DNA of 64,000 nucleotides from Coleofasciculus sp. FACHB-1120 (GTDB taxonomy: Bacteria > Cyanobacteriota > Cyanobacteriia > Cyanobacteriales > FACHB-T130): positions 1 to 64,000 of the forward strand of contig NZ_JACJTV010000013.1 in assembly GCF_014698845.1 (NCBI RefSeq), in the 5' to 3' direction. Positions 35,947-48,763 of this stretch are shown piece by piece. Under the pieces are notes generated by a model, which did no database searches, was not told where the DNA came from, and was given only the letters and a program-made list of their open reading frames with translations. Position numbers and translations under genes: made by a program. Within the stretch, counting starts at the first letter, position 1. Each line of letters starts with the position of its first letter.

Positions 35947-36248
35947 TCATTCCATTTTATGCACGGTAAGCCACCTAATTTTTGTTAAAAGAAGACTTTA
36001 ATTTATAAATATTAAAGGGAATTAAACACAGTTAATAAATTCTTAATAAAAATTATTGAATTAGGGAGTTTTCGTGAATTTACGGAGTTCCGATGATTCC
36101 AAAAATATTTCAGTAAAACTACTGAGACTTCTGGTTTCTATATAGTGCTATTAATTTAATTAATAGGCTTTTTATAAAAAAAATTTATAACTATAAGCTC
36201 CCGTTTTCGCTAGGCTAAAGCGAATTTTTGCAAGAAGGAATCAGAATT
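35947..36248. other. AT-rich region upstream of the phototaxis operon
   Basis: About 300 bases, strongly AT-rich, with no supported frame. It ends in the ribosome site AAGGAA of the first operon gene, so it probably contains the operon promoter. I cannot single out -35 and -10 boxes. Confidence 0.5.
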
Positions 36249-37472
36249 ATGACAGCCCAACCTATGAAGATTAGTGCTTTTGCTAGCAAGCTGACTGCTT
36301 TGAAGCAAGCTCGCTTTAGTGGGCGGCTGTTCCTGAAAGGTACCTTGGGGCAAGAGTGGACTCTTTATTTCTACCTGGGTCGAATTTTGTACGCGACTGG
36401 AGGAACTCATCCAGTTAGAAGGTGGCAAAGACATTTAGGAGCTCATTGTTCTAATGTTAATCTAAATCAACTTCATTTAAACTTGCCAAGTAATATTTCT
36501 GAAACATCTTCAGAGGTTAGCAAGAATCATCGGGAATATTATTTGCTATGTTTATGGTTAAAGCAGCAACAAATTACCCGCGAACAAGTTGTCAAAATTA
36601 TTCAAGGCATTGTTCTTGAAGTATTGTTTGATATTAGTCAAGAGATACCGAAGGCGTTACAAATCAAGCAAGAAAACCCTTTGGCTCCCCAGTTATTATT
36701 GATTGATGCCGAACAAGCGATCGCTAAAACTCAGGAAATTTGGCAAGCCTGGAAAATCGCCAAAATTTCCGATCTGCTTCCCAATCGAGCGCCGTCAATC
36801 AAGCAACCAGAACAACTCCAGCAAAAAACATCGCCTACCGTTTATAAATCTCTGACATTGTTATTAAACGGGCAAAGAACCCTGCGGGATATAGCAGTTC
36901 AAACTAAGCGCAATGTTGCGGAAGTAGCCCGTTCCCTATTGCCTTACATTGAAACTGGATTAGTAGAGTTAAATGATATTCCAGATTTAGCAGATCCAGT
37001 TGCTCAGGCTTCTTCAGAATTACCTGTTAAAAATTCCCCGGCTTCTTCAGGCAAAACACCCGCTCAAGTGGCGGCTCGGAAACCGTTGATTGCTTGTGTG
37101 GATGACAGCCCATTGGTTTGCAAAAACATGGAAAAGATCCTTACATCAGCCGGGTATCAATTTTTAGCAGTCTCAGATTCGATGCGAGCGATCGCTACTT
37201 TATTAAATCGCAAACCTCATATCATCTTTTTAGACCTGGTAATGCCTAATACGAACGGCTATGAAATTTGTACCCAATTGCGTAAAGTTTCCGCTTTCCG
37301 AGACACCCCGATTATTATCTTGACGGGAAATGACGGTATCATTGACCGAGTCCGAGCTAAGGTTGTCGGAGCTTCAGATTTCATGGGGAAACCCGTCGAT
37401 GCGGAAAAGGTGCTAGCGATAACAAACAAGTACCTCAAGCACCTCAAAAACAGTTCCCTCGTAGTTAGTTGA
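36249..37472 (+). CDS. pixG: PatA/PixG-type response regulator
   Basis: 407 residues from ATG 36249 (AAGGAA just upstream). The N-terminal PATAN-type domain (about 1-200) has ISAFASKLTALKQARFSGRL and WTLYFYLGRILYATGGTHPV. A linker region has TLLLNGQRTLRDIAVQTKRN. The C-terminal receiver (about 280-400) has D329 in IIFLDLVMPNTNGYE and Lys in DFMGKPVDAEK. PixG/PatA proteins respond to CheA in phototaxis and pilus control. It is the first gene of pixG-H-I-J-L, the order known from Synechocystis. Confidence 0.92.
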   Translation: MTAQPMKISAFASKLTALKQARFSGRLFLKGTLGQEWTLYFYLGRILYATGGTHPVRRWQRHLGAHCSNVNLNQLHLNLPSNISETSSEVSKNHREYYLLCLWLKQQQITREQVVKIIQGIVLEVLFDISQEIPKALQIKQENPLAPQLLLIDAEQAIAKTQEIWQAWKIAKISDLLPNRAPSIKQPEQLQQKTSPTVYKSLTLLLNGQRTLRDIAVQTKRNVAEVARSLLPYIETGLVELNDIPDLADPVAQASSELPVKNSPASSGKTPAQVAARKPLIACVDDSPLVCKNMEKILTSAGYQFLAVSDSMRAIATLLNRKPHIIFLDLVMPNTNGYEICTQLRKVSAFRDTPIIILTGNDGIIDRVRAKVVGASDFMGKPVDAEKVLAITNKYLKHLKNSSLVVS

Positions 37473-37500: not shown

Positions 37501-37866
37501 ATGCATACTGCTTTAATCGTTGAAGATACCCTAACTGAAAGGGAAACTTTTGCTAGCTGTTTGCGACGAGGTGGCTTAAATGTTTTAACAGCGAATACTG
37601 GAGAAGAAGCCTTAGAAAAAATCAGTACCCATAAACCCGATGTAATCATCCTAGACGTTGTATTGCCCGGTCGTAGCGGCTTTGAACTCTGCCGCGAACT
37701 CAAAGCAGATGCAGAAACCAGCAAAATTCCAGTCGTGATGTGTTCCACTAAAAGCACCGACATGGATAAATTTTGGGGCATGAAACAAGGAGCAGATGCC
37801 TACATTCCAAAACCAGTCGATCAAGAGGAACTGCTGCGTACTGTTAATCAATTAATTAAAGGTTAG
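37501..37866 (+). CDS. pixH: CheY-like response regulator PixH
   Basis: 121 residues, a single receiver domain with D52 in VIILDVVLPGRSGFE, Thr/Ser in VVMCSTKSTD and Lys in DAYIPKPVDQEEL. There is no output domain, so it acts by protein contact. AGGAGG lies nine bases before the ATG. It follows pixG by 28 bases and precedes the CheW gene by 35. Confidence 0.94.
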   Translation: MHTALIVEDTLTERETFASCLRRGGLNVLTANTGEEALEKISTHKPDVIILDVVLPGRSGFELCRELKADAETSKIPVVMCSTKSTDMDKFWGMKQGADAYIPKPVDQEELLRTVNQLIKG

Positions 37867-37901: not shown

Positions 37902-38489
37902 ATGGAATCTGAATTTTTGTCTGGGAACAAAACCTTAATTGGGCAATTGGAAACCCCAAAGGCAGAGCATAAAGCAGCCGTGGGAGAGCAATTTTTGCGG
38001 TTTCATCTTTTTCCGGACATTACCGCACTATTCCCCATGCATCAAATGACAGAGGTGCTGACAATTCCAGTTGGTCAGATTGTCCCCATTCCTCATATGC
38101 CAGCTTGGGTGATGGGAGTTTATAACTGGCGCGGTGAGATTTTATGGATTGCGGATCTCGGTCATTTGGTAGGGTTGACTCCCTTATATTTACAGGCAAT
38201 TAACCGATCAACCTACACAGTCATTGTGATTCATGGGGAACAGCAAATCCTTGGCAAACAGCAAACTGGTAGCCAAATTACAGGAAAAAAGATGCTGGGA
38301 TTGGTAGTGAATCGAGTTGAAGACATCGAAAGCTGCGATCCAGATTTAATTCAATCTCCTCCACAATCATCTATCACCCCGGAATTGGTGCCATTTTTGC
38401 GGGGATATTGGCTGAAATCAAATGGTGAAATACTGGTGGTTCTAGAGGGAGAATCCATCATGGCTGGAATGCCTAAGCCAGAAGTTTGA
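37902..38489 (+). CDS. pixI: CheW-like adaptor PixI
   Basis: 195 residues. The CheW domain (about 30-190) has LRFHLFPDITALFPMHQMTE, VPIPHMPAWVMGVYNWRGEI and LWIADLGHLVGLTPLYLQ. It is expected to couple the PixJ receptor to the CheA kinase. An N-terminal polar extension of about 30 residues is unremarkable. Confidence 0.93.
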   Translation: MESEFLSGNKTLIGQLETPKAEHKAAVGEQFLRFHLFPDITALFPMHQMTEVLTIPVGQIVPIPHMPAWVMGVYNWRGEILWIADLGHLVGLTPLYLQAINRSTYTVIVIHGEQQILGKQQTGSQITGKKMLGLVVNRVEDIESCDPDLIQSPPQSSITPELVPFLRGYWLKSNGEILVVLEGESIMAGMPKPEV

Positions 38490-38610: not shown

Positions 38611-41600
38611 ATGAAGACACCTTCTGATCCTCAATCCGATCCAACAAAAGCCAATATTAAGCGTCGCCTCAGGGGTCGCAAGACAGGTGTGAGCCATCAA
38701 CCCCCTCCTCTGAAGCTCATTCCGAACCAACAAGATTTAGACGGCTCTCAGAATCTTGAGCAAAAGGTAGACAACAAGGGTAAAGAGCAACTAGAGACAA
38801 CAGAGCAAGGCAACCTTAAGCCTCCGTCGCCACAACTGAATGTACCCAAAAGCCGCACGCTCCGCAGCCAATTGTTGCGGACAATCTTACCTGTGGTACT
38901 AGCACCGCTAGCGATCGCAGGTATTGTCAGCTGGGGGATGACGAATTATCAAGCATCTGGGCGCACCGAGACGAAATTATGGAATGACGCAATGCTATCC
39001 TCCAACTTGGCTGGCGTAAAGGTCAAGAATGCGTTGATTTCGTCGTCTTTGGCAGAAAATTCCTTAACGATTGATATTGCGCGTGCTGCTAACTTTGACG
39101 AACTAGCAGTGCCGTTGGAGCATGTGGGACTGAGTAACACAGAAAAAATTCAAATTTTGGCTCCAGCAAGCAAAGCCGTTATTAGTACCATTACATCTAA
39201 TGGAGCGATCGCTCAGAAAGAAGTATTGGGTGGCGAACCGATTTTACAAACAGCTACCGCTCTGTTAGCCGAACTAGAAGTACAAAAGGCTAATTTTGGG
39301 GAAAACGCCACCCTAGGGAAAAAGCCAAGCTACGTTGCCACTACAGGTCAACTTCAGGGACTGACCATTATCCCTTACGTTCACAAAGAGGGACAATTAG
39401 TTCTGAGTACCTCCTTCGATCGGGACGGCAGAAAGTATAGCCTTGCCGCAGTTCCCGGTATCGATTTGGTCAGTGTTACTTCAATCGATCTTTCGGAAAT
39501 TGCTGCCGCTGGAAACGAGCATGGACTAATTTTTGTCCTAATTTTTCTTTCCTTGGGAGCCTTAGGTGCAGGCATTGTGGTGAGTTTAGCACGCCGCTGG
39601 TCAGCGCCTTTGAAAGAGTTGACGGGGACATCAGAGCAGGTTGCTGCCGGAAATTTGGATGCCTACGTTGAACCTCGCGGTACTACTGAAACCCAAACTC
39701 TAGCTGTTAGCTTCAATAACTTGGTGGCACGAGTTAAAGACTTATTAAGCAAGCAAGAAGTTGAAGGTAAGCGATTACAACTGTGTGCGGATATTGCAAC
39801 CAGTGCCAGAGAATCTCTAGATATTCACGAAGTATTCAAGAAAGCAGTTCAAGGCACGCAACAAATCCTGAACGCAGAACGAGTATTCATCTATCGCTTC
39901 AATCCTGACTGGAGTGGCTATGTTGTTGCCGAAGCCGTAGCGTCCGGATTGCCGACCTGCATGAAAATCAAGGTGGCTGATACTTACTTCACCTCTTCAA
40001 AGGTGGGAGTAGAACTCTATCGGAAGGGTCGTGTATTTGTCATTGATGACATCTACAAAGCCAATCTCACCCATTGCCACATTGAATTGTACGAGCGATT
40101 AAAAATAAAAGCCAATGTAATTACCCCACTGATTAGCGGCGACAAACTACTTGGCTTGATGTGTACGCAACAGTGTTCAACTCCCCGAAATTGGCAGCAG
40201 TCTGAAGTTGATTTCTGCACCCAAGTTTCCACTCAATTAGGCTTAGCGATAGACCGGATCGGCTATTTGCAAAAGCGGGAAGTTGAAGCTAAACAACAAG
40301 AAGTTGAAGCCAAGCGATTACAGTTGTGTGCCGATATCGCCACCAGCGCTAGAGAATCGTTAGATATCAAAGAAATTTTCGATAAAGCTGTTCAAGGAAC
40401 TCAACAAGTCCTGAAAGCCGAACGGGTGTTTTTGTATCGCTTCAATCCGGATTGGAGTGGAGATGTCGTCGCAGAATCAATTGCACCAGGTTGGCCTTCC
40501 TGCTTGAAAATGACCGTCACAGATACCTACTTCACCGACTCTCCAGTGGGGGTAGAACGATATCGCAATGGTCGTGTGTTTGTCATCAATGACATCTACA
40601 AAGCTAATCTTACAGGTTGTCACATTGAGCTGTATGAGCGATTAAAAATCAAAGCCAATGTGATCACCCCGATTGTCAGCGGTGATAAACTGTTGGGCTT
40701 ACTGTGTACGCAGCAGTGTTCAAATTCTCGGAATTGGCAGCAGTATGAAGTTGATTTTTGTTCGCAGTTGTCTACTCAAGTCGGTTTAGCTCTAGATCGA
40801 ATCAGTTTCTTAGAACAGAAAGAAGGTGAAGCAAAACAGCAAGAAGTTGAAGCAAAACGCATTCAATTGTGTGCCGATATTGCTACTAGCGCTCGTGAAT
40901 CTCTCGATGTCAAAGAAGTATTTGAGAAAGCCGTTGTTGGCGCTCAACAAATTCTGAATGCAGAACGAGTGTTTTTGTATCGCTTCAACCCAGATTGGAG
41001 TGGGGATGTAGTTGCCGAATCAGTGATGCCGGGTTGGCCTTCCTGCCTGAAAATGACCGTGACCGATACTTACTTCACTGACTCGAATGTGGGTGTAGAA
41101 AGATATCGCAATGGTCGTGTCTTTGTCATCAATGATATTTACCAATCTGGGTTGACTTATTGTCATGTTGAGTTGTATGAGCGATTAAGAATTAGAGCCA
41201 ATGTGATTACCCCGATTGTCAGCGGTGATAAATTACTCGGCTTACTGTGTACGCAACAATGTTCAAATCCTCGGATATGGCAACAGTATGAAGTAGACTT
41301 TTGCTCGCAGTTGTCCACTCAAGTCGGCTTAGCTCTAGACCGAATCAGTTTCCTAGAACAGAAAGAAACTGAAGCAAAACAGCAAGAAGTTGAAGCTAAG
41401 CGCATTCAACTGTGTGCCGATATTGCTACTAGCGCTCGTGAATCGCTAGATGTCAAGGAAGTATTTGAAAAAGCGGTTGTTGGCGCTCAACAAATCCTGA
41501 ATGCGGAACGGGTGTTTTTGTATCGCTTTAACCCGGATTGGAGTGGAGATGTTGTTGCGGAAGCGGTGACGACCGGCTTGCCTTCGTGCCTGAAAATGAC

Positions 41601-44034
41601 CGTGACCGATACTTACTTCACCGACTCGAATGTGGGTGTAGAAAAGTATCGTAAAGGTCGTGTATTTGTCATTAATGACATCTATCAAGCCAATCTTACA
41701 GGTTGTCACATTGAGTTGTACGAGCGATTAAAAATCAAAGCCAATGTAATCACCCCGATTGTCAGCGGTGATAAACTACTGGGCTTGATGTGTACGCAGC
41801 ACTGTTCAAATCCTCGGATTTGGCAGCAGTATGAAGTCGATTTTTGCTCGCAGTTGTCTACTCAAATCGGCTTGGCTTTAGACCGAATCAGTTTCCTCAA
41901 ACAGAAGGAAGCGGAAGCAAAACAGCGAGAAGTCGAAGCCAATTTGACACAACTGTTTGCAGACATTGCCAACAGCGCTCGTGAATCTCTCGATGTCAAA
42001 GAGGTTTTCGAGAAAGCAGTGATTGGCGCTCAACAAATCCTAAATGCAGAACGGGTGTTTTTGTATCGCTTTAACCCGGACTGGAGTGGGAATGTTGTTG
42101 CGGAAGCCGTGACGCCCGGATTACCGACCTGCATGAACATGAAAGTAGCTGATAGCTATTTCACCGACTCAGACGCGGGGGTAGAGTTGTACCGCCAAGG
42201 TCGCGTGTTTGTTATTGATGATATCTATCAAGCGAATCTCGCCCCTTGTCACGTTGAGTTGTACGAGCGATTAAAAATCAAAGCCAATGTGATCACCCCG
42301 ATTGTTAGCGGTGACAAACTACTGGGCTTAATGTGTACCCAGCAATGTTCAACCCCTCGGACTTGGCAGCAGTCTGAAGTCGCTATCTGCACGCAGTTGT
42401 CCACTCAAGTTGGTTTAGCGATAGACCGCATCAGCTATCTGGAACAGAAAGAAGCTCAAGCCACGCGATCGCAACTTTTGTCGATGATTACCCTCCGGAT
42501 TCGGGAAACTCTGAAGCTGGAAGACATTCTTAATACAGCAGTCCAAGAGGTGCGACGCGCATTTAAAACAGATCGCTTGATCGTCTATCGCTTCGATGCG
42601 AACTGGGATGGGACGGTAATTGCAGAATCTGTAGGGACGGGTTGGATGCCCACTCAAGGAGTCAAAGTTGAAGATACCTGCTTGAAAGAGACGCAGGGGG
42701 GAAGCTACAACAAAGGGCGCATTCGTGCGATTGACGATATTTATCAAGCGGGTCTGAACGAGTGTCACGTTAAAATGTTGGAGCGCTTTCAAGTCAAAGC
42801 TAACTTGGTCGTGCCCATCGTGGTAGATAACGAGCTATTCGGCTTGATGATTGCTCATCAATGTTCGGGGACTCGCATTTGGCAGAAGGGTGAAATCGAT
42901 TTGTTCACCCAGTTGACAACTCAAGTAGGTATTGCCCTCAACCAAGCGACGCTGCTGGAACAGATTCAAACTTTGCTAGCGGCGCAAGAGGAAGCAACCC
43001 GCCAACAATCTGCAAATGCCGAACAGCAAAGGTCAGCCAAGGAAGCCCTGCAAAAACGAGCGATGGAACTGCTGCTGGAAGTCGATCCCGTCAGTAAAGG
43101 AGACCTGACCATTCGGGCGCAAGTGACTGAAGATGAAATCGGCACGATTGCTGACTCCTACAATGCCACGATCGGTAGCTTGCGGAAAATTGTTAGCCAG
43201 GTGCAAACTGCCGCCAAACAAGTGGCAGCAACCACCAGCACCAATGAAGTTTCTGTCCAAGAGTTATCGGCAGAAGCTTTACGGCAATCGGAGGAAATTT
43301 TAGTGGCTCTGGATCGAATTCAGGAAATGTCCACCTCAATTCGAGCGGTTGCTGCCAATGCCGAACAAGCGGAAGCTGCGGTTCAACAAGCGACGCAGAT
43401 TGTGAAGGAGGGTGACGCTGCCATGAACCGCACGGTGGACGGGATTCTAGCAATCCGGGAAACTGTTGCAGAAACCTCCAAAAAAGTCAAGCGCTTGGGC
43501 GAATCTTCGCAAAAGATTTCCAAGGTGGTAAACCTGATTGGCACCTTTGCCGCTCAAACGAACTTGTTGGCGCTGAATGCTTCAATTGAGGCGGCACGCG
43601 CTGGGGAAGAGGGTCGAGGCTTCGCCGTCGTTGCGGATGAAGTGCGATCGCTAGCGCGGCAATCGGCAGCAGCAACGGCGGAAATTGAAAAGTTGGTTGC
43701 AGGCATTCAAGCAGAAACCAATGAGGTGGTAGCGGCGATGGAAGCAGGCACCGAGCAGGTTGTTACAGGAACGAAACTGGTGGATGAAACCCGCCAAAGC
43801 CTGAACAAAATTACGACTGCCAGCGCCCAGATCAGCGCCTTGGTGGAAGCGATCGCCCAAGCGGCTATCGTGCAATCCAAAGCTTCCGATGCAGTCACCA
43901 AAACCATGACCGATGTGGCAGCGATCGCCACTAAAACCTCAACGGGAGCCACCGATGTATCGGCATCCTTTAAGGAATTGCTAGCGTTGGCGCAAGAACT
44001 GCAAGCAAACGTGGGTCGATTTAAAGTTAGCTAA
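38611..44034 (+). CDS. pixJ: PixJ-type methyl-accepting photoreceptor with six GAF domains
   Basis: 1807 residues. A disordered basic N-terminus (1-90) is followed by membrane helices at about 93-112 and 304-325, enclosing a periplasmic domain, and a HAMP (about 328-385). Six GAF domains start at 387, 568, 749, 930, 1111 and 1285. Each keeps the cyanobacteriochrome Cys-His pair, with Cys at 489, 670, 851, 1032, 1213 and 1385. GAF1-5 have DTYF or DSYF where DXCF types have a second Cys, and GAF6 has DTCL with Cys1357. A second HAMP-like segment (about 1480-1540) and an MCP signalling domain follow. The hairpin tip is [20 protein letters not shown], then [17 protein letters not shown]. It would sense light for phototaxis through CheW and CheA. 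Bilin binding is predicted, not shown. Confidence 0.94.
39769..42462 (+). repeat. tandem array of five GAF-coding units, 543-nt period
   Basis: Units begin at 39769, 40312, 40855, 41398 and 41941. The first four spacings are exactly 543 bases (181 codons); the last unit, 522 bases, lacks one linker heptad. Long stretches are nearly identical between units 2-4, for instance the region encoding WSGDVVAE and the segment encoding [17 protein letters not shown]. This implies recent duplication or gene conversion inside pixJ. Confidence 0.92.
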
Positions 44035-44035
44035 T

Positions 44036-44230
44036 GGGTAATCGGTAATCGGTAATGAGTAACGGGTAATTGGTAATGGGTAATTCTAATGGGTAATCGG
44101 TAATCGGTAGGGGCAAGAATCCAACCAACTACCAATTACTAAACCTCTTTTCCCCAATTATCAATTCCCAATTCCCAACCCTCATACGCCTTTTCCCCAA
44201 TTACCAATTACTAATTACCAATTACCAATT
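44036..44230. repeat. heptamer array and complementary array between pixJ and pixL
   Basis: 44036-44111 is about eleven imperfect copies of a 7-base unit (GGTAATC / GGTAATG / GGTAATT). 44125-44230 carries complementary units (ATTACCA, ATTACTA, CCCAATT). The two halves can pair, so the intergenic transcript could fold into a long hairpin and affect pixL expression. Confidence 0.85.
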
Positions 44231-44237
44231 CAGTATT

Positions 44238-47200
44238 ATGGCGCTCGACTCTGATATCCGCGACCAAGCCTATCAGTTCTTCATTCAAGAAGCTCCAGAG
44301 CTGTTGCAGGTCATCGAATCGGAACTGCTGACGCTCAAGACAGAGCGGACAACCGCGAAAGTTCACAGTCTCATGCGTGCGGCTCACTCGATTAAAGGGG
44401 GATCTGCTTGTGTAGGACTTGAAACAATCAAAACAATAGCTCACCGCCTTGAAGATATCTTTAAGGCACTCCACAACAAAGAGTTAGAGATTGATGCCGA
44501 ACTAGAAAGCTTGTTGCTGCAAGCCTATGATTGTCTCCGCCTCCCTTTAATGGATCAGATTCTGGCGGGTCATTTCAACGCAGAACAGGCGATCGCGATC
44601 GCCGAACCCGTGTTTGCCAAAATTGAGGCGCAATTAGGAGATTTCCTCACCGGAGAGGAAGTTTTACCCAATGCAGTGGAATTGGGAATCGATATCACCT
44701 TATCGATATTTGAAGTGGACGTGGCGCAGGAACTAGAGCGCCTCACCAATGTTTTAGCCCATCCTGAAAGCAATCAAGTAGCCGGAGAATTGCGGGCACT
44801 CGCTGATGTATTTACCGGCATCGCAGAATTATTAAGTTTGCCAGGATTTGGAGCGATCGCTCAAACTACTTTGGCGGCTCTCGATGCTCATCCCGAACAA
44901 GCCTTGCAGATTGCTAAATTGGCATTATCTGATTTTCTGGCAGCGAGGGAAGGCGTACTTGCAGGCGATCGCTTGCTTGGCGGTTCTCCCTCTCCCGCTT
45001 TAACAAAACTTGCTGCTGCTTCTCCAGTTCAAACTTCGTCCGTAGCAGCGGTTACAGTCATCCAACTAGCTTCCGAATTAGAGCTACTGACACTGACTGA
45101 AGATGAAGAGGAATCAGCGCCCTCTTTTTCCTTTTCTTCTATTGAAGATATTTTTGGTAGCTCTGTCCTCTCCTCTGAAATCAATGAAGATTTCCTAGAC
45201 GTTTCGGCACTATTCACATCTGAAGAAATTCCCGAAACAGAGTTAGGCATTCCAGGGGAAACGCTAACTTCTATCGCTGATTTCGATGAAATTCTTGATT
45301 TCTCAGATTCCAGTCTGTCAACTCAAAATCAACTCCCTCTTTCCACAGTTGATGAGCCTGACCACCTAATCTTAACAACAGATGAGGAAATCCTTGAACA
45401 AAAATTAAGCGAACGAGAACAGAAACAGACTTCGGATAAAATTTTTAAGGATTCAAACTTAATACCAGAAATTCCAGAAGTTCCGAATAATTACTCTTTT
45501 GATGGACTGAAACTTCCGGCACTGCCAGCAGCTAATAAAAATCAAGAATTTGAGTTAATAGCTCAAGAAGAGATACTCGCTTCCCCTCCTTCTCTCGATG
45601 AAGTTTTTGGTAGCTTCGTCTCAAATTTGCCAACGATAGAAATTGAAAATTTATCCTCTTTTGAGGTAGCAGAGCCGACGGTGCTAATTGAGGAACGGTC
45701 TGAATTAGAGCCAAATATTGAAGAAACTGACCTAGTTACTCTCCCAACGATAGAACTTACGCCAGTTTCACCGCCAGCTCCAGAACTACACTCAGAATTA
45801 ATTGAAACACAATCTCCAGCGAATATTCAAGAAATTGTTCAGAAAATCGAACAATTATTTGACAGCTTACCTTCCGTAACCGAGCTTCCAGTCAATCTAG
45901 CTAACACAGAAAATTCGCCTCAGCTAATTCAGACAGAAATCGACAAACTAGCATCTAAAACCTCTAAACCCGCTAAATTGCCTGCTGCCAAAGACAAGCA
46001 AAAGGAGACTATCACCCCTACCAATCCTACTCCCCAACTTTCTGTTCGAGTTGACCTAGATCGACTGGAACGAATGAATAACTTGGTGGGTGAACTTGCT
46101 ATTAACCGAAACGGTCTTTTCCTTCAAAACGAGCAACTACAGGCAACGGTGAAAGAACTGCTGCGGCGGTTTACTAAATTTCAGGAAATCGCCAATCATC
46201 TGCGCGATTTATCAGACCAGATGATAGTGGCTCCAGAACGCCATTCTATCGCATCAGACCAGCAAACTTTTGCGCCTCTAAAACCAGGAAATTCGGGTGT
46301 AAAAACGCGATTTACAGCCTCTGAAACTGGGGAAAATATAGAGCCAAATTCTCTGTCTTCTAGCACTTCTACACCCCTAATTTCTTCGTTTGACTCCCTA
46401 GAGATGGACAGCTATGGAGAATTACACTCAATGGTGCAAGAAAGTCTCGAAGAGATGGTGCAACTCGAAGAAATCGTTGGGGATGTGGCACACTTAGCTG
46501 GGCAATCAAGCCAAACTTTAGAAGGTCAACGTCAAATGATCGCCCACTTGCGGGATGATTTGATGTGGGCGCGGATGCTTCCCCTGCGCGAAGTGTTGAG
46601 TCGTTTTCCGAGAGTCTTGCGCGACCTTTCCACAAAATACAAAAAGCCAGTCGATCTGAAATTAAGCGGGACGGGAGTTTTAGTTGATAAAGCAGCTTTA
46701 GAAAAACTCAACGACCCTTTACTGCACTTGCTCCGAAATGCCTTCGATCATGGCATTGAGCCGCCAGAAGTACGCCGTCAGCGAGGGAAACCGGAGCGAG
46801 GTCAGATTGAAATTCAGGCTTATCATCAGGGAAGCCATACGATTATTGAAGTCCGGGATGACGGTCAAGGAGCCAACCTAGAACGCATCCGTTTGAAAGC
46901 ATTAGAGTTGGGGTTGCTTTCACCAGAACAAGTGGCTATAACTTCAACAACTCGACTTTTAGATTTGCTATTTGAGCCAGGATTTTCCACTGCGGCTCAA
47001 GTCAGCGAACTGTCGGGTCGAGGAGTGGGATTAGATGTGGCGCGATCGCAACTGCGATCGCTCAAAGGTACCATCACCATCACGACCACTCCTGGAAAAG
47101 GTACCACCTTTACGTTACGCATCCCGCTGACGCTGACGATTGCCAAATTACTCGTCTGCTTGGTTGGTTCCACTGCTTACGCCTTCCCCGCTGACAGCAT

Positions 47201-48095
47201 TGAAGAGATTGTAATTCCGAAAACTGACCAGATGAAGCACTCTGGAAAACAGAGATTTTTGCACTGGCGCAAGCGGATCGTTCCTGTCTATCACTTATCA
47301 GAATTACTGGACTACAGTTGTCCGTTGCCTGAATCAATTCCCAGCCAAGCTTTAGTCGCCGTTCCCACTCCCGAAGCTTGGGCACCACCGATGCTGCTAA
47401 TCCGCCGAGATAACCAAATTTTCGCTTTAGAAATCGATCGCTTGGTCACAGAGCAAGAATTGGTGATTAAACCCTTTGGTGCAGCGATCGCGCCTCCAAG
47501 TTATATTTACGGTTGCACGATTTTAGGAGATGGGAGCCTGATTCCGGTAATTGATGGGGCAACGCTTCTGACTCAGATGGTTGGGCAAAGTAAGAACGCG
47601 ATCGCTACGACTACTTTCACCGATCTGCCAACTGCTTCCCCCATCACAACTGCATCAATTGACAAAACTAAAGTATTCGCGAATCCTGCCAAATCGCCTT
47701 TAATATTAATCGTCGATGACTCGATTACCCTGAGGCAAACTTTAGCTTTAACACTCCAAAAAGCCGGATACCGCGTCTTACAAGCAAGAGATGGAAGGGA
47801 AGCCATCGAACAGTTACAGCAAAATTCCAGCATTCAAATGGTAGTTTGCGATGTGGAAATGCCGAATCTAAATGGCTTTGAATTTCTCAACCATCGTCGT
47901 CAAGATCCGCAGCTATCGAAAATACCCGTCGCGATGCTGACTTCCCGCAGTAGTGAAAAACATCGGCAATTAGCCACTCACTTGGGAGCCAGTGCTTACT
48001 TTAGCAAACCTTACTTAGAGCAAGAATTTTTAGCAGCACTCAAAGCCCTTTTTGAAAAAAGTGGAGCTTTAGGAGCTGTCGTTCGTAGCTCATAA
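44238..48095 (+). CDS. pixL: CheA-type hybrid histidine kinase PixL
   Basis: 1285 residues. The N-terminal HPt domain has H50 in MRAAHSIKGGSACVGL. A second helical, HPt-like segment without an obvious His spans about 150-240. A long acidic, low-complexity linker (about 260-590) follows. The dimer domain has LERMNNLVGELAINRNGLFL. The kinase has LLHLLRNAFDHGIEPPEVRR (N box), VRDDGQGANLERI and LFEPGFSTAAQVSELSGRG. The CheW-like domain lies at about 960-1110. A C-terminal receiver has D1205 in MVVCDVEMPNLNGFE. This matches PixL/HmpE-type CheA of cyanobacterial phototaxis. It is expected to phosphorylate PixH and PixG. Confidence 0.95.
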   Translation: MALDSDIRDQAYQFFIQEAPELLQVIESELLTLKTERTTAKVHSLMRAAHSIKGGSACVGLETIKTIAHRLEDIFKALHNKELEIDAELESLLLQAYDCLRLPLMDQILAGHFNAEQAIAIAEPVFAKIEAQLGDFLTGEEVLPNAVELGIDITLSIFEVDVAQELERLTNVLAHPESNQVAGELRALADVFTGIAELLSLPGFGAIAQTTLAALDAHPEQALQIAKLALSDFLAAREGVLAGDRLLGGSPSPALTKLAAASPVQTSSVAAVTVIQLASELELLTLTEDEEESAPSFSFSSIEDIFGSSVLSSEINEDFLDVSALFTSEEIPETELGIPGETLTSIADFDEILDFSDSSLSTQNQLPLSTVDEPDHLILTTDEEILEQKLSEREQKQTSDKIFKDSNLIPEIPEVPNNYSFDGLKLPALPAANKNQEFELIAQEEILASPPSLDEVFGSFVSNLPTIEIENLSSFEVAEPTVLIEERSELEPNIEETDLVTLPTIELTPVSPPAPELHSELIETQSPANIQEIVQKIEQLFDSLPSVTELPVNLANTENSPQLIQTEIDKLASKTSKPAKLPAAKDKQKETITPTNPTPQLSVRVDLDRLERMNNLVGELAINRNGLFLQNEQLQATVKELLRRFTKFQEIANHLRDLSDQMIVAPERHSIASDQQTFAPLKPGNSGVKTRFTASETGENIEPNSLSSSTSTPLISSFDSLEMDSYGELHSMVQESLEEMVQLEEIVGDVAHLAGQSSQTLEGQRQMIAHLRDDLMWARMLPLREVLSRFPRVLRDLSTKYKKPVDLKLSGTGVLVDKAALEKLNDPLLHLLRNAFDHGIEPPEVRRQRGKPERGQIEIQAYHQGSHTIIEVRDDGQGANLERIRLKALELGLLSPEQVAITSTTRLLDLLFEPGFSTAAQVSELSGRGVGLDVARSQLRSLKGTITITTTPGKGTTFTLRIPLTLTIAKLLVCLVGSTAYAFPADSIEEIVIPKTDQMKHSGKQRFLHWRKRIVPVYHLSELLDYSCPLPESIPSQALVAVPTPEAWAPPMLLIRRDNQIFALEIDRLVTEQELVIKPFGAAIAPPSYIYGCTILGDGSLIPVIDGATLLTQMVGQSKNAIATTTFTDLPTASPITTASIDKTKVFANPAKSPLILIVDDSITLRQTLALTLQKAGYRVLQARDGREAIEQLQQNSSIQMVVCDVEMPNLNGFEFLNHRRQDPQLSKIPVAMLTSRSSEKHRQLATHLGASAYFSKPYLEQEFLAALKALFEKSGALGAVVRSS

Positions 48096-48205: not shown

Positions 48206-48763
48206 ATGAACAGCGCTTTAATCAACTCAACCCCCCCGGATTTCGATCGGTTAGATGTTTCCGCGTCTGTACCCGCTATTAAAGTGCTTGTGTTTAGCAT
48301 TGGTAGCTTAAACTTGGGTTTGCGGATTGAGTCTATCTATAAAGTGCTGAATTCTACCCAAATTTTTGGCAGCGGACAGAATGGAGTCGGGATTGCTCAT
48401 GTAGGCGATCGCGAAGTGACTGTTTTGGATCTACAGCAGCGGTTATTTTCATCCAACCCAACCCATGAAACCCTTCAGGGAGCCTACCTGATTGTTATTC
48501 AAAATAGCGAAAGCGAGTTGTATGGTATCCCCGTGGAAACCGTTCCCGCTTTGATAGATGTACCCTTATCCACGATTCGAGTCTTACCCGAATCCTTTCG
48601 TCACGCTAATACCCTAGGGATAGCCAGTCACGTTGCTGTCATTTCTCAACCAGAAACTTCTCTAACCTTATTTCTGTTAGATATTGATACAACAACGAAA
48701 CTTTCTTGGGGAAATTTGTCTCTGCCACCGGGTACGGAAGAGGAGACACGGCAGCATCAATAA
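48206..48763 (+). CDS. second CheW-like protein at the end of the phototaxis operon
   Basis: 185 residues. The CheW fold is recognisable from KVLVFSIGSLNLGLRIESIY, VGIAHVGDREVTVLDLQQRL and YLIVIQNSESELYGIPVETV. It is more diverged than PixI. It lies 110 bases after pixL on the same strand and probably belongs to the operon. It could compete with PixI for CheA or serve another receptor. The C-terminus is polar (GTEEETRQHQ). Confidence 0.82.
   Translation: MNSALINSTPPDFDRLDVSASVPAIKVLVFSIGSLNLGLRIESIYKVLNSTQIFGSGQNGVGIAHVGDREVTVLDLQQRLFSSNPTHETLQGAYLIVIQNSESELYGIPVETVPALIDVPLSTIRVLPESFRHANTLGIASHVAVISQPETSLTLFLLDIDTTTKLSWGNLSLPPGTEEETRQHQ

Follow-up and report, generated by a model that had tools for sequence, protein, structure and literature searches.

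The receptor gene and its GAF array

We examined a 64,000-nucleotide stretch of the genome of the cyanobacterium Coleofasciculus sp. FACHB-1120 (contig NZ_JACJTV010000013.1, positions 1 to 64,000; hereafter the window), focusing on one gene for a predicted photoreceptor with six GAF domains in series. The gene is a single uninterrupted frame on the plus strand (38611-44034) with a product of 1807 amino acids (aa). Two hydrophobic stretches (aa 87-105 and 297-315) are followed by a HAMP domain, the six GAFs and an MCP signalling domain. A Pfam scan placed HAMP at aa 326-376 and MCPsignal at aa 1617-1772 and gave six GAF matches, with no PHY family in the receptor at E <= 0.001. The Cys-His pair typical of bilin attachment was found in all six GAFs, which together with the lack of a PHY domain marks them as predicted cyanobacteriochrome (CBCR) GAFs; such GAFs joined to an MCP signalling domain behind a membrane anchor are the hallmark of PixJ/PtxD receptors. 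None of the 13 NCBIfam models listed for the receptor reached its own cut-off. The features of the gene are as follows.

38611..44034, + strand: predicted PixJ/PtxD-type receptor, 1807 aa (Pfam, open frame, hydrophobic stretches)
39586..39738, + strand: HAMP domain, aa 326-376 (Pfam)
39757..40275, + strand: GAF1, array type; chromophore Cys489, loop Cys450 (repeat and motif comparison)
40300..40818, + strand: GAF2, array type; chromophore Cys670, loop Cys631 (repeat and motif comparison)
40843..41361, + strand: GAF3, array type; chromophore Cys851, loop Cys812 (repeat and motif comparison)
41386..41904, + strand: GAF4, array type; chromophore Cys1032, loop Cys993 (repeat and motif comparison; AlphaFold2 model)
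41929..42447, + strand: GAF5, array type; chromophore Cys1213, loop Cys1174 (repeat and motif comparison)
42451..42963, + strand: GAF6, DXCF-type; DTCL Cys1357, chromophore Cys1385 (motif, tree)
43459..43926, + strand: MCP signalling domain, aa 1617-1772 (Pfam)

A preliminary description, made from the letters of the window alone, had set out the geometry of these units correctly. The five array GAFs lie exactly 543 bp apart (steps of 543, 543, 543 and 543 bp), the sixth is offset by 516 bp instead, and a His directly follows each of the chromophore cysteines at the positions it gave (489, 670, 851, 1032, 1213 and 1385). It was also right that only GAF6 has the second Cys of DXCF-type CBCRs (Cys1357, in DTCL); GAF1-5 read D-T/S-Y-F at this site, with Tyr in place of Cys.

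Lineage and residues of the array GAFs

To place the GAFs, we used a main tree of 120 GAFs that was built without NpR3784 itself and without the named insert-Cys proteins; support is given as ultrafast bootstrap/SH-aLRT. One clade (100/98) took in the array units together with the unit of the relative G214; its neighbours, joined to it at 100/99, were the terminal DTCL GAFs and DXCF GAFs of the TePixJ kind. AnPixJg2, NpR6012g4 and the other XRG GAFs stood apart in a superclade that comprised 49 rows (100/100). The array again came out as a single clade outside XRG in a quick tree of 121 rows, and an XRG placement of GAF1-5 was thereby rejected. GAF6 sits in a clade whose members have the DXCF Cys, its own motif having Leu for Phe. 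The tree thus upholds the earlier suggestion that one receptor combines five sensors of one lineage with one of another. Because the sister GAFs have the DXCF Cys, the ancestor of the array GAFs most simply lost it; Tyr occupies the site in 36/36 array units, a set that includes two units truncated at contig ends in relatives. In a further clade of CBCR GAFs (loci L067-L084), the motif is mostly D-S-F-F in place of DXCF.

Each of GAF1-5 has an additional Cys (450, 631, 812, 993 and 1174), absent from the preliminary description, in the loop after the second strand and nine residues ahead of the Tyr that replaces the DXCF Cys. This loop Cys is present in 34 of the 36 array units. In one alignment of 34 array units with 89 other Cys-bearing CBCR GAFs, the column held Cys in 32/34 array units and in 0/89 others. 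Two further columns were similarly distinctive, C1079 (33/34 vs 0/89) and Gln1063 (34/34 vs 1/89, the others having mostly His, Tyr, Asn or Phe), and C1061 was found in 34/34 array units and 9/89 other GAFs. Position 1063 we take to face the D ring of the bilin, going by AnPixJ and phytochrome structures. The Cys-His pair, Asp1000, Tyr1002, Tyr1013 and Trp977 were invariant in 36/36 array units. In all, 40 columns were invariant among array units, which makes the loop Cys just one conserved site among many.

An AlphaFold2 model of GAF4 (mean predicted local distance difference test score, pLDDT, 92; predicted template modelling score 0.88) puts Cys993 in the loop between strand 57-64 and short helix 79-82, Cys1032 in helix 109-117 and Cys1061 in strand 133-142. 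Its best structural matches in the PDB were 6oap and sister entries, followed by 3w2z and TePixJ.

A second Cys in a loop ahead of a D-x-Y motif is also known from the insert-Cys CBCRs (UG1, UG2, UB1 and VO1), where it lies in an insertion (PMC5240096). In having a Cys in the loop before D-x-Y, all five window units and 34 of the 36 array units resemble these proteins. However, the distance from Cys to Tyr, calculated from the residue numbers in that paper, is 28 in UG1 and 16 in UG2, as opposed to 9 in the array. Neither an insertion nor a CXXR/K motif was seen in GAF1-5, which read CMKI, CLKM or CMNM and show no loop gap against TePixJ in the alignment. Sixteen GAFs in the surveyed PixJ-like proteins were assigned to the insert-Cys type by pattern; the Cys stood 16 residues before the Tyr in 12 of these, and 13 had CXXR/K. 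All sixteen fell inside the XRG superclade (100/100) and the array GAFs outside it, and common descent of the two was rejected on this placement. Given this placement, the ungapped loop and the missing CXXR/K, the array loop Cys, if it is a bilin ligand, would probably be a separate invention, and it probably arose independently of insert-Cys.

Copy number, age and spacing of the array

GAFs of the GAF4 type are rare. At E <= 1e-54 they were found in 8 of 388 genomes of the order, and in 2 of 388 genomes of a class-wide draw, namely the window's own genome (G000) and G214; the two draws overlap, and both are samples. Since the genome-wide tallies in these large draws scored only 9 or 18 candidates per genome, copy numbers were read directly from the loci. 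Five array units are present in G000, G003, G004 and G005. In G051, a frame of 2821 aa on a 5.3-Mb contig contains ten array units and then the terminal DTCL unit, eleven GAFs in total. G214 has a single array unit, preceded by a DPCF GAF. Contigs end within the array in three genomes, whose counts are therefore minima: at least three whole units and a fragment in G025, at least three units and a cut one in G030, and at least two units and a cut one, on two contigs, in G007. With ten units in G051 against five in the window, repeat number does vary between relatives, as had been anticipated. The region before HAMP is larger in the receptors of G005, G051 and G030 (L090, L092 and L066) than in that of the window, the frame start lying 134, 115 and 150 aa farther from the first GAF Cys, respectively.

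The window units are considerably less alike than the term "near-identical" in the preliminary description implies. Over 181 aa, GAF1-5 share 71-91% of amino acids and 73-87% of nucleotides pairwise, and their synonymous divergence (dS, by the NG86 method) is 0.57-1.49; as measured alongside the units of the congener G003, they share 73-91% of amino acids at a dS of 0.60-1.51. Between the window and the congener G003, array units at the same position are 97-99% identical in amino acids (dS 0.12-0.41), whereas units at other positions are 74-90% identical (dS 0.45-1.47). The array is thus old rather than fresh, since same-position units in the congener are closer than units within one array, and the five copies and their order therefore predate the split of the window species from G003. 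Neither identity nor dS between the window and G003 revealed recent homogenisation among the window units. The recent duplication or gene conversion proposed earlier for the window array is contradicted by the dS values and by this same-position orthology.

Recent expansion does fit the relative G051. Its units 1-8 are 88-99% identical in amino acids, and among units 2-8 dS is 0.16-0.63 and exact shared runs reach 221 nucleotides between non-neighbours, a pattern that fits recent expansion with exchange between units. G051 and G025 belong to one genus, and their final two array units and terminal GAFs match by position with 100, 98 and 94% amino acid identity. In G005, from another genus of the family, GAF5 and GAF6 pair by position with their window counterparts with support, and units 1-4 do so weakly or not at all. 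These pairings fit a conserved C-terminal end with turnover further in. A second MCP receptor of G051 (L108, G051:C6:5279000-5287000) contains a run of three XRG GAFs with 90-97% identity, which makes two receptors of this genome that have undergone repeat expansion.

The units are spaced with great regularity. From one chromophore Cys to the next, array-to-array steps measured 181 aa (29 steps) or 174 aa (3 steps), which accounts for 32/32 steps, and the step from the array to the terminal GAF was 172 aa in 7/7; the step of 192 from the DPCF GAF to the array GAF of G214 was left out of this count. Between D-x-Y/C and Cys-His the loop of the terminal GAF is two residues shorter, and 174 minus these two gives the value of 172. 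Linker length thus shifts by seven residues, that is, by one heptad, as a coiled-coil linker would require. An AlphaFold2 model of two units, used solely to look at the join between them, has one helix running across it (residues 151-204, block means 76-84). A heptad rule looks general for such receptors, since unrelated DXCF arrays in genomes of another family, f49, follow it too, with steps of 172, 179, 172 and 179 in 5/5 genomes.

Phototaxis setting, interpretation and significance

The receptor gene is surrounded by genes for PatA-like/CheY receivers, CheW and CheA, as is typical of PixJ/PtxD clusters:

36228..37472, + strand: PixG-like response regulator, DUF4388/PATAN-like plus receiver (Pfam DUF4388 and Response_reg, scanned from 36246; synteny)
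37501..37866, + strand: PixH-like CheY receiver (Pfam Response_reg; synteny)
37902..38489, + strand: PixI-like CheW (Pfam CheW; synteny)
44238..48095, + strand: PixL-like hybrid CheA with Hpt, H-kinase_dim, HATPase, CheW and receiver (Pfam; synteny)
48206..48763, + strand: second CheW-like protein (Pfam CheW; synteny)

In Synechocystis, the tax1 cluster has PixG, PixH, PixI and PixL beside PixJ1, and the ptx cluster of Nostoc is built alike (PMC5812497). Gene order around the receptor is kept in G003, G005 and G051; the contigs of G025 and G030 and both contigs of G007 have the half of the cluster that each can hold, and the version in G214 is more distant, with nothing in it that matched the last CheW. 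The PixG-like gene was matched in 5 of 9 regions compared and weakly in a sixth, with just 37% identity in G005. In the window genome, one match to family PF05996 (bilin reductases) was found, along with six MCP signalling domains; GAF-family matches number 130 at E <= 0.001 across this one 6.2-Mb genome. A scan for promoters and terminators showed no excess over shuffles (12 vs a mean of 17.6, and 16 vs 15.0, respectively), and transcript borders are therefore left unclaimed. Beginning at the receptor stop codon, the heptamer TAATGGG occurs in about 11 copies (44032-44109), with CCAATTACC-type repeats downstream of this run, reaching about 44239.

We consider it likely that the gene encodes a membrane-anchored phototaxis receptor of the PixJ/PtxD type, in which five GAFs of one distinctive CBCR clade and one DXCF-type GAF are set between HAMP and the MCP domain and joined by long, heptad-stepped helices. 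This reading is built on the observed domain order, gene cluster, clade, copy numbers, spacing and conserved residues, from which we infer bilin binding, colour, coupling along the helix and behaviour. Whichever GAF absorbs light, the coiled coil common to all of them would move and thereby alter the activity of CheA (PixL), with output through the receivers PixG and PixH to type IV pili. Having several copies of one GAF type would increase both photon capture and gain at a single colour, and the terminal GAF would add a second colour next to the MCP domain. As for the colour of GAF1-5, our leading guess, held with somewhat less than even confidence, is a dual-Cys photocycle via the loop Cys with a near-UV, violet or blue dark state; a single-Cys photocycle of the orange/green type would come next.

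Several observations weigh against parts of this picture. In G051 and in G025, the final unit of the array has Phe at the loop Cys site, and C1061, common to all array units compared, could be the relevant thiol instead. Four DxFF GAFs (in L067-L084) and the GAF of 6oap, which lies outside that clade, have a Cys in the same loop, three residues upstream of the array position; together with one DXCF GAF of the window genome that has a Cys just before the Asp, loop-Cys cases elsewhere total 6/89. Because 6oap has a loop Cys and yet absorbs at 562 nm, in its Pg state (PMC11480761), the presence of a loop Cys is not in itself proof of a bilin adduct. The two-unit model has a mean pLDDT of only 67. 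The spacings come from related genomes, with G004 and G005 as near-copies, and are not independent; moreover, heptad spacing is common to other arrays and not special to this one.

The other readings we regard as less probable. The preliminary description had hinted at red/green sensing by GAF1-5, and these could be ordinary single-Cys red/green-type domains, giving a receptor with five red/green sensors and one blue/green sensor. They lack the DXCF Cys, as do typical XRG GAFs (PMC11284453), and with GAF2 as the query a PDB sequence search returned NpR6012g4 (6bhn) as the best match, then 6oap, with AnPixJg2 (3w2z) third and TePixJ slightly behind. Such a plain search, however, gives a less sharp picture of class than the tree. 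XRG GAFs are defined by a WXDXXL motif (PMC11284453), and this motif is missing from GAF1-5, all five having Val for Trp and Phe for Leu. The NpR3784 lineage, whose GAFs are usually red/green, has Val where the motif has Trp (PMC11284453), as do most array GAFs, and the placement outside the XRG clade comes from a tree without NpR3784, which leaves room for that lineage. Still, the array residues in the loop Cys, C1079 and Gln1063 columns occur in only 0, 0 and 1 of the 89 other GAFs, and we judge red/green sensing by GAF1-5 unlikely.

We think it quite improbable that the array units serve mostly as spacers or for dimerisation, with only GAF6 and perhaps one or two others sensing light. Synechocystis PixJ1, in which the second GAF alone binds phycocyanobilin (PMC5812497), sets a precedent, and the interior units turn over more than the C-terminal ones. 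Free spacers would be expected to decay, though, and the bilin-pair and other residues invariant in 36/36 units argue against this. Finally, there is next to no chance that we are looking at an error of assembly, which the preliminary description had allowed for, or at a transient expansion of the repeat in a single strain. Short-read assemblies tend to fail inside such arrays, and contigs do end there in 3 of the 8 array-bearing genomes of the order. But the assemblies of G003, G004 and G005 contain five units in the same order and spacing, ten units lie on the 5.3-Mb contig of G051, and the window units differ enough in nucleotides to be assembled apart. The independent assemblies refute an artefact in the window.

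Multi-GAF PixJ/PtxD receptors are already known. PtxD of Nostoc punctiforme (NpF2164) is similar to the window receptor in its serial GAFs, its MCP domain and its Che-like phototaxis cluster; it has seven GAFs, at least six of them binding bilin, and PtxD mutants lose positive phototaxis (PMC5812497). It is set apart, going by its published description, by mixed photocycles, including those of two insert-Cys GAFs, the violet/orange g3 and the near-UV/blue g2 (PMC5240096), whereas five of the six window GAFs are of one clade. PixJ1 of Synechocystis and TePixJ of Thermosynechococcus are likewise membrane-anchored GAF-MCP receptors, and between one and five serial GAFs are ascribed to PixJ (PMC13383048). 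The TePixJ GAF belongs to the clade adjoining the array clade but has DXCF where the array GAFs have Tyr, with a Cys nine residues before. The dual-sensor histidine kinase PPHK (6oap), the top structural match to the GAF4 model, resembles the array in having Tyr for the DXCF Cys (DQYF); it differs in its clade, its histidine kinase output and the lack of a Cys at the array position.

Nor is a homogeneous array unique, as runs of GAFs of one lineage were found in other PixJ-like proteins among 19 surveyed regions that contain a long PixJ-like frame. Three XRG GAFs stand in a row in L102, L108, L111 and L112 (68-97% amino acid identity), as do three to four GAFs of insert-Cys pattern in L103 and L107 (58-68%). 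The f49 frames (L122, L126, L128, L130 and L133, from 5 genomes) have at least five DPCF GAFs in a row, with 51-78% identity between units in the three arrays compared. A literature search found no publication on the array GAF clade, which is weak evidence of absence, since subscription papers were mostly outside its coverage. Judging by that search, three things are new: the clade of the array GAFs and its characteristic residues, the long array of like units, and a natural series that runs from five to ten copies.

More speculatively, and with real doubt, we propose that the array GAFs may be a new dual-cysteine CBCR class, whose ancestor dropped the DXCF Cys and gained a Cys nine residues upstream independently of insert-Cys. 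Tandem copying, to as many as ten units in heptad register, may then have produced a variable-gain antenna on a single receptor. Length would also set the distance between the CheA layer and the membrane, and receptors that differ in copy number would therefore be unable to work in a common array.

Phototaxis receptors with several sensors are familiar; the puzzle is why one of them should carry the same sensor many times over. With natural variants of five or ten copies to hand, copy dose can be tested directly for its effects on photon capture, gain and receptor length. A second bilin-binding cysteine may also have had an independent origin in the array GAFs, which would be useful for understanding colour tuning and for optogenetic parts.

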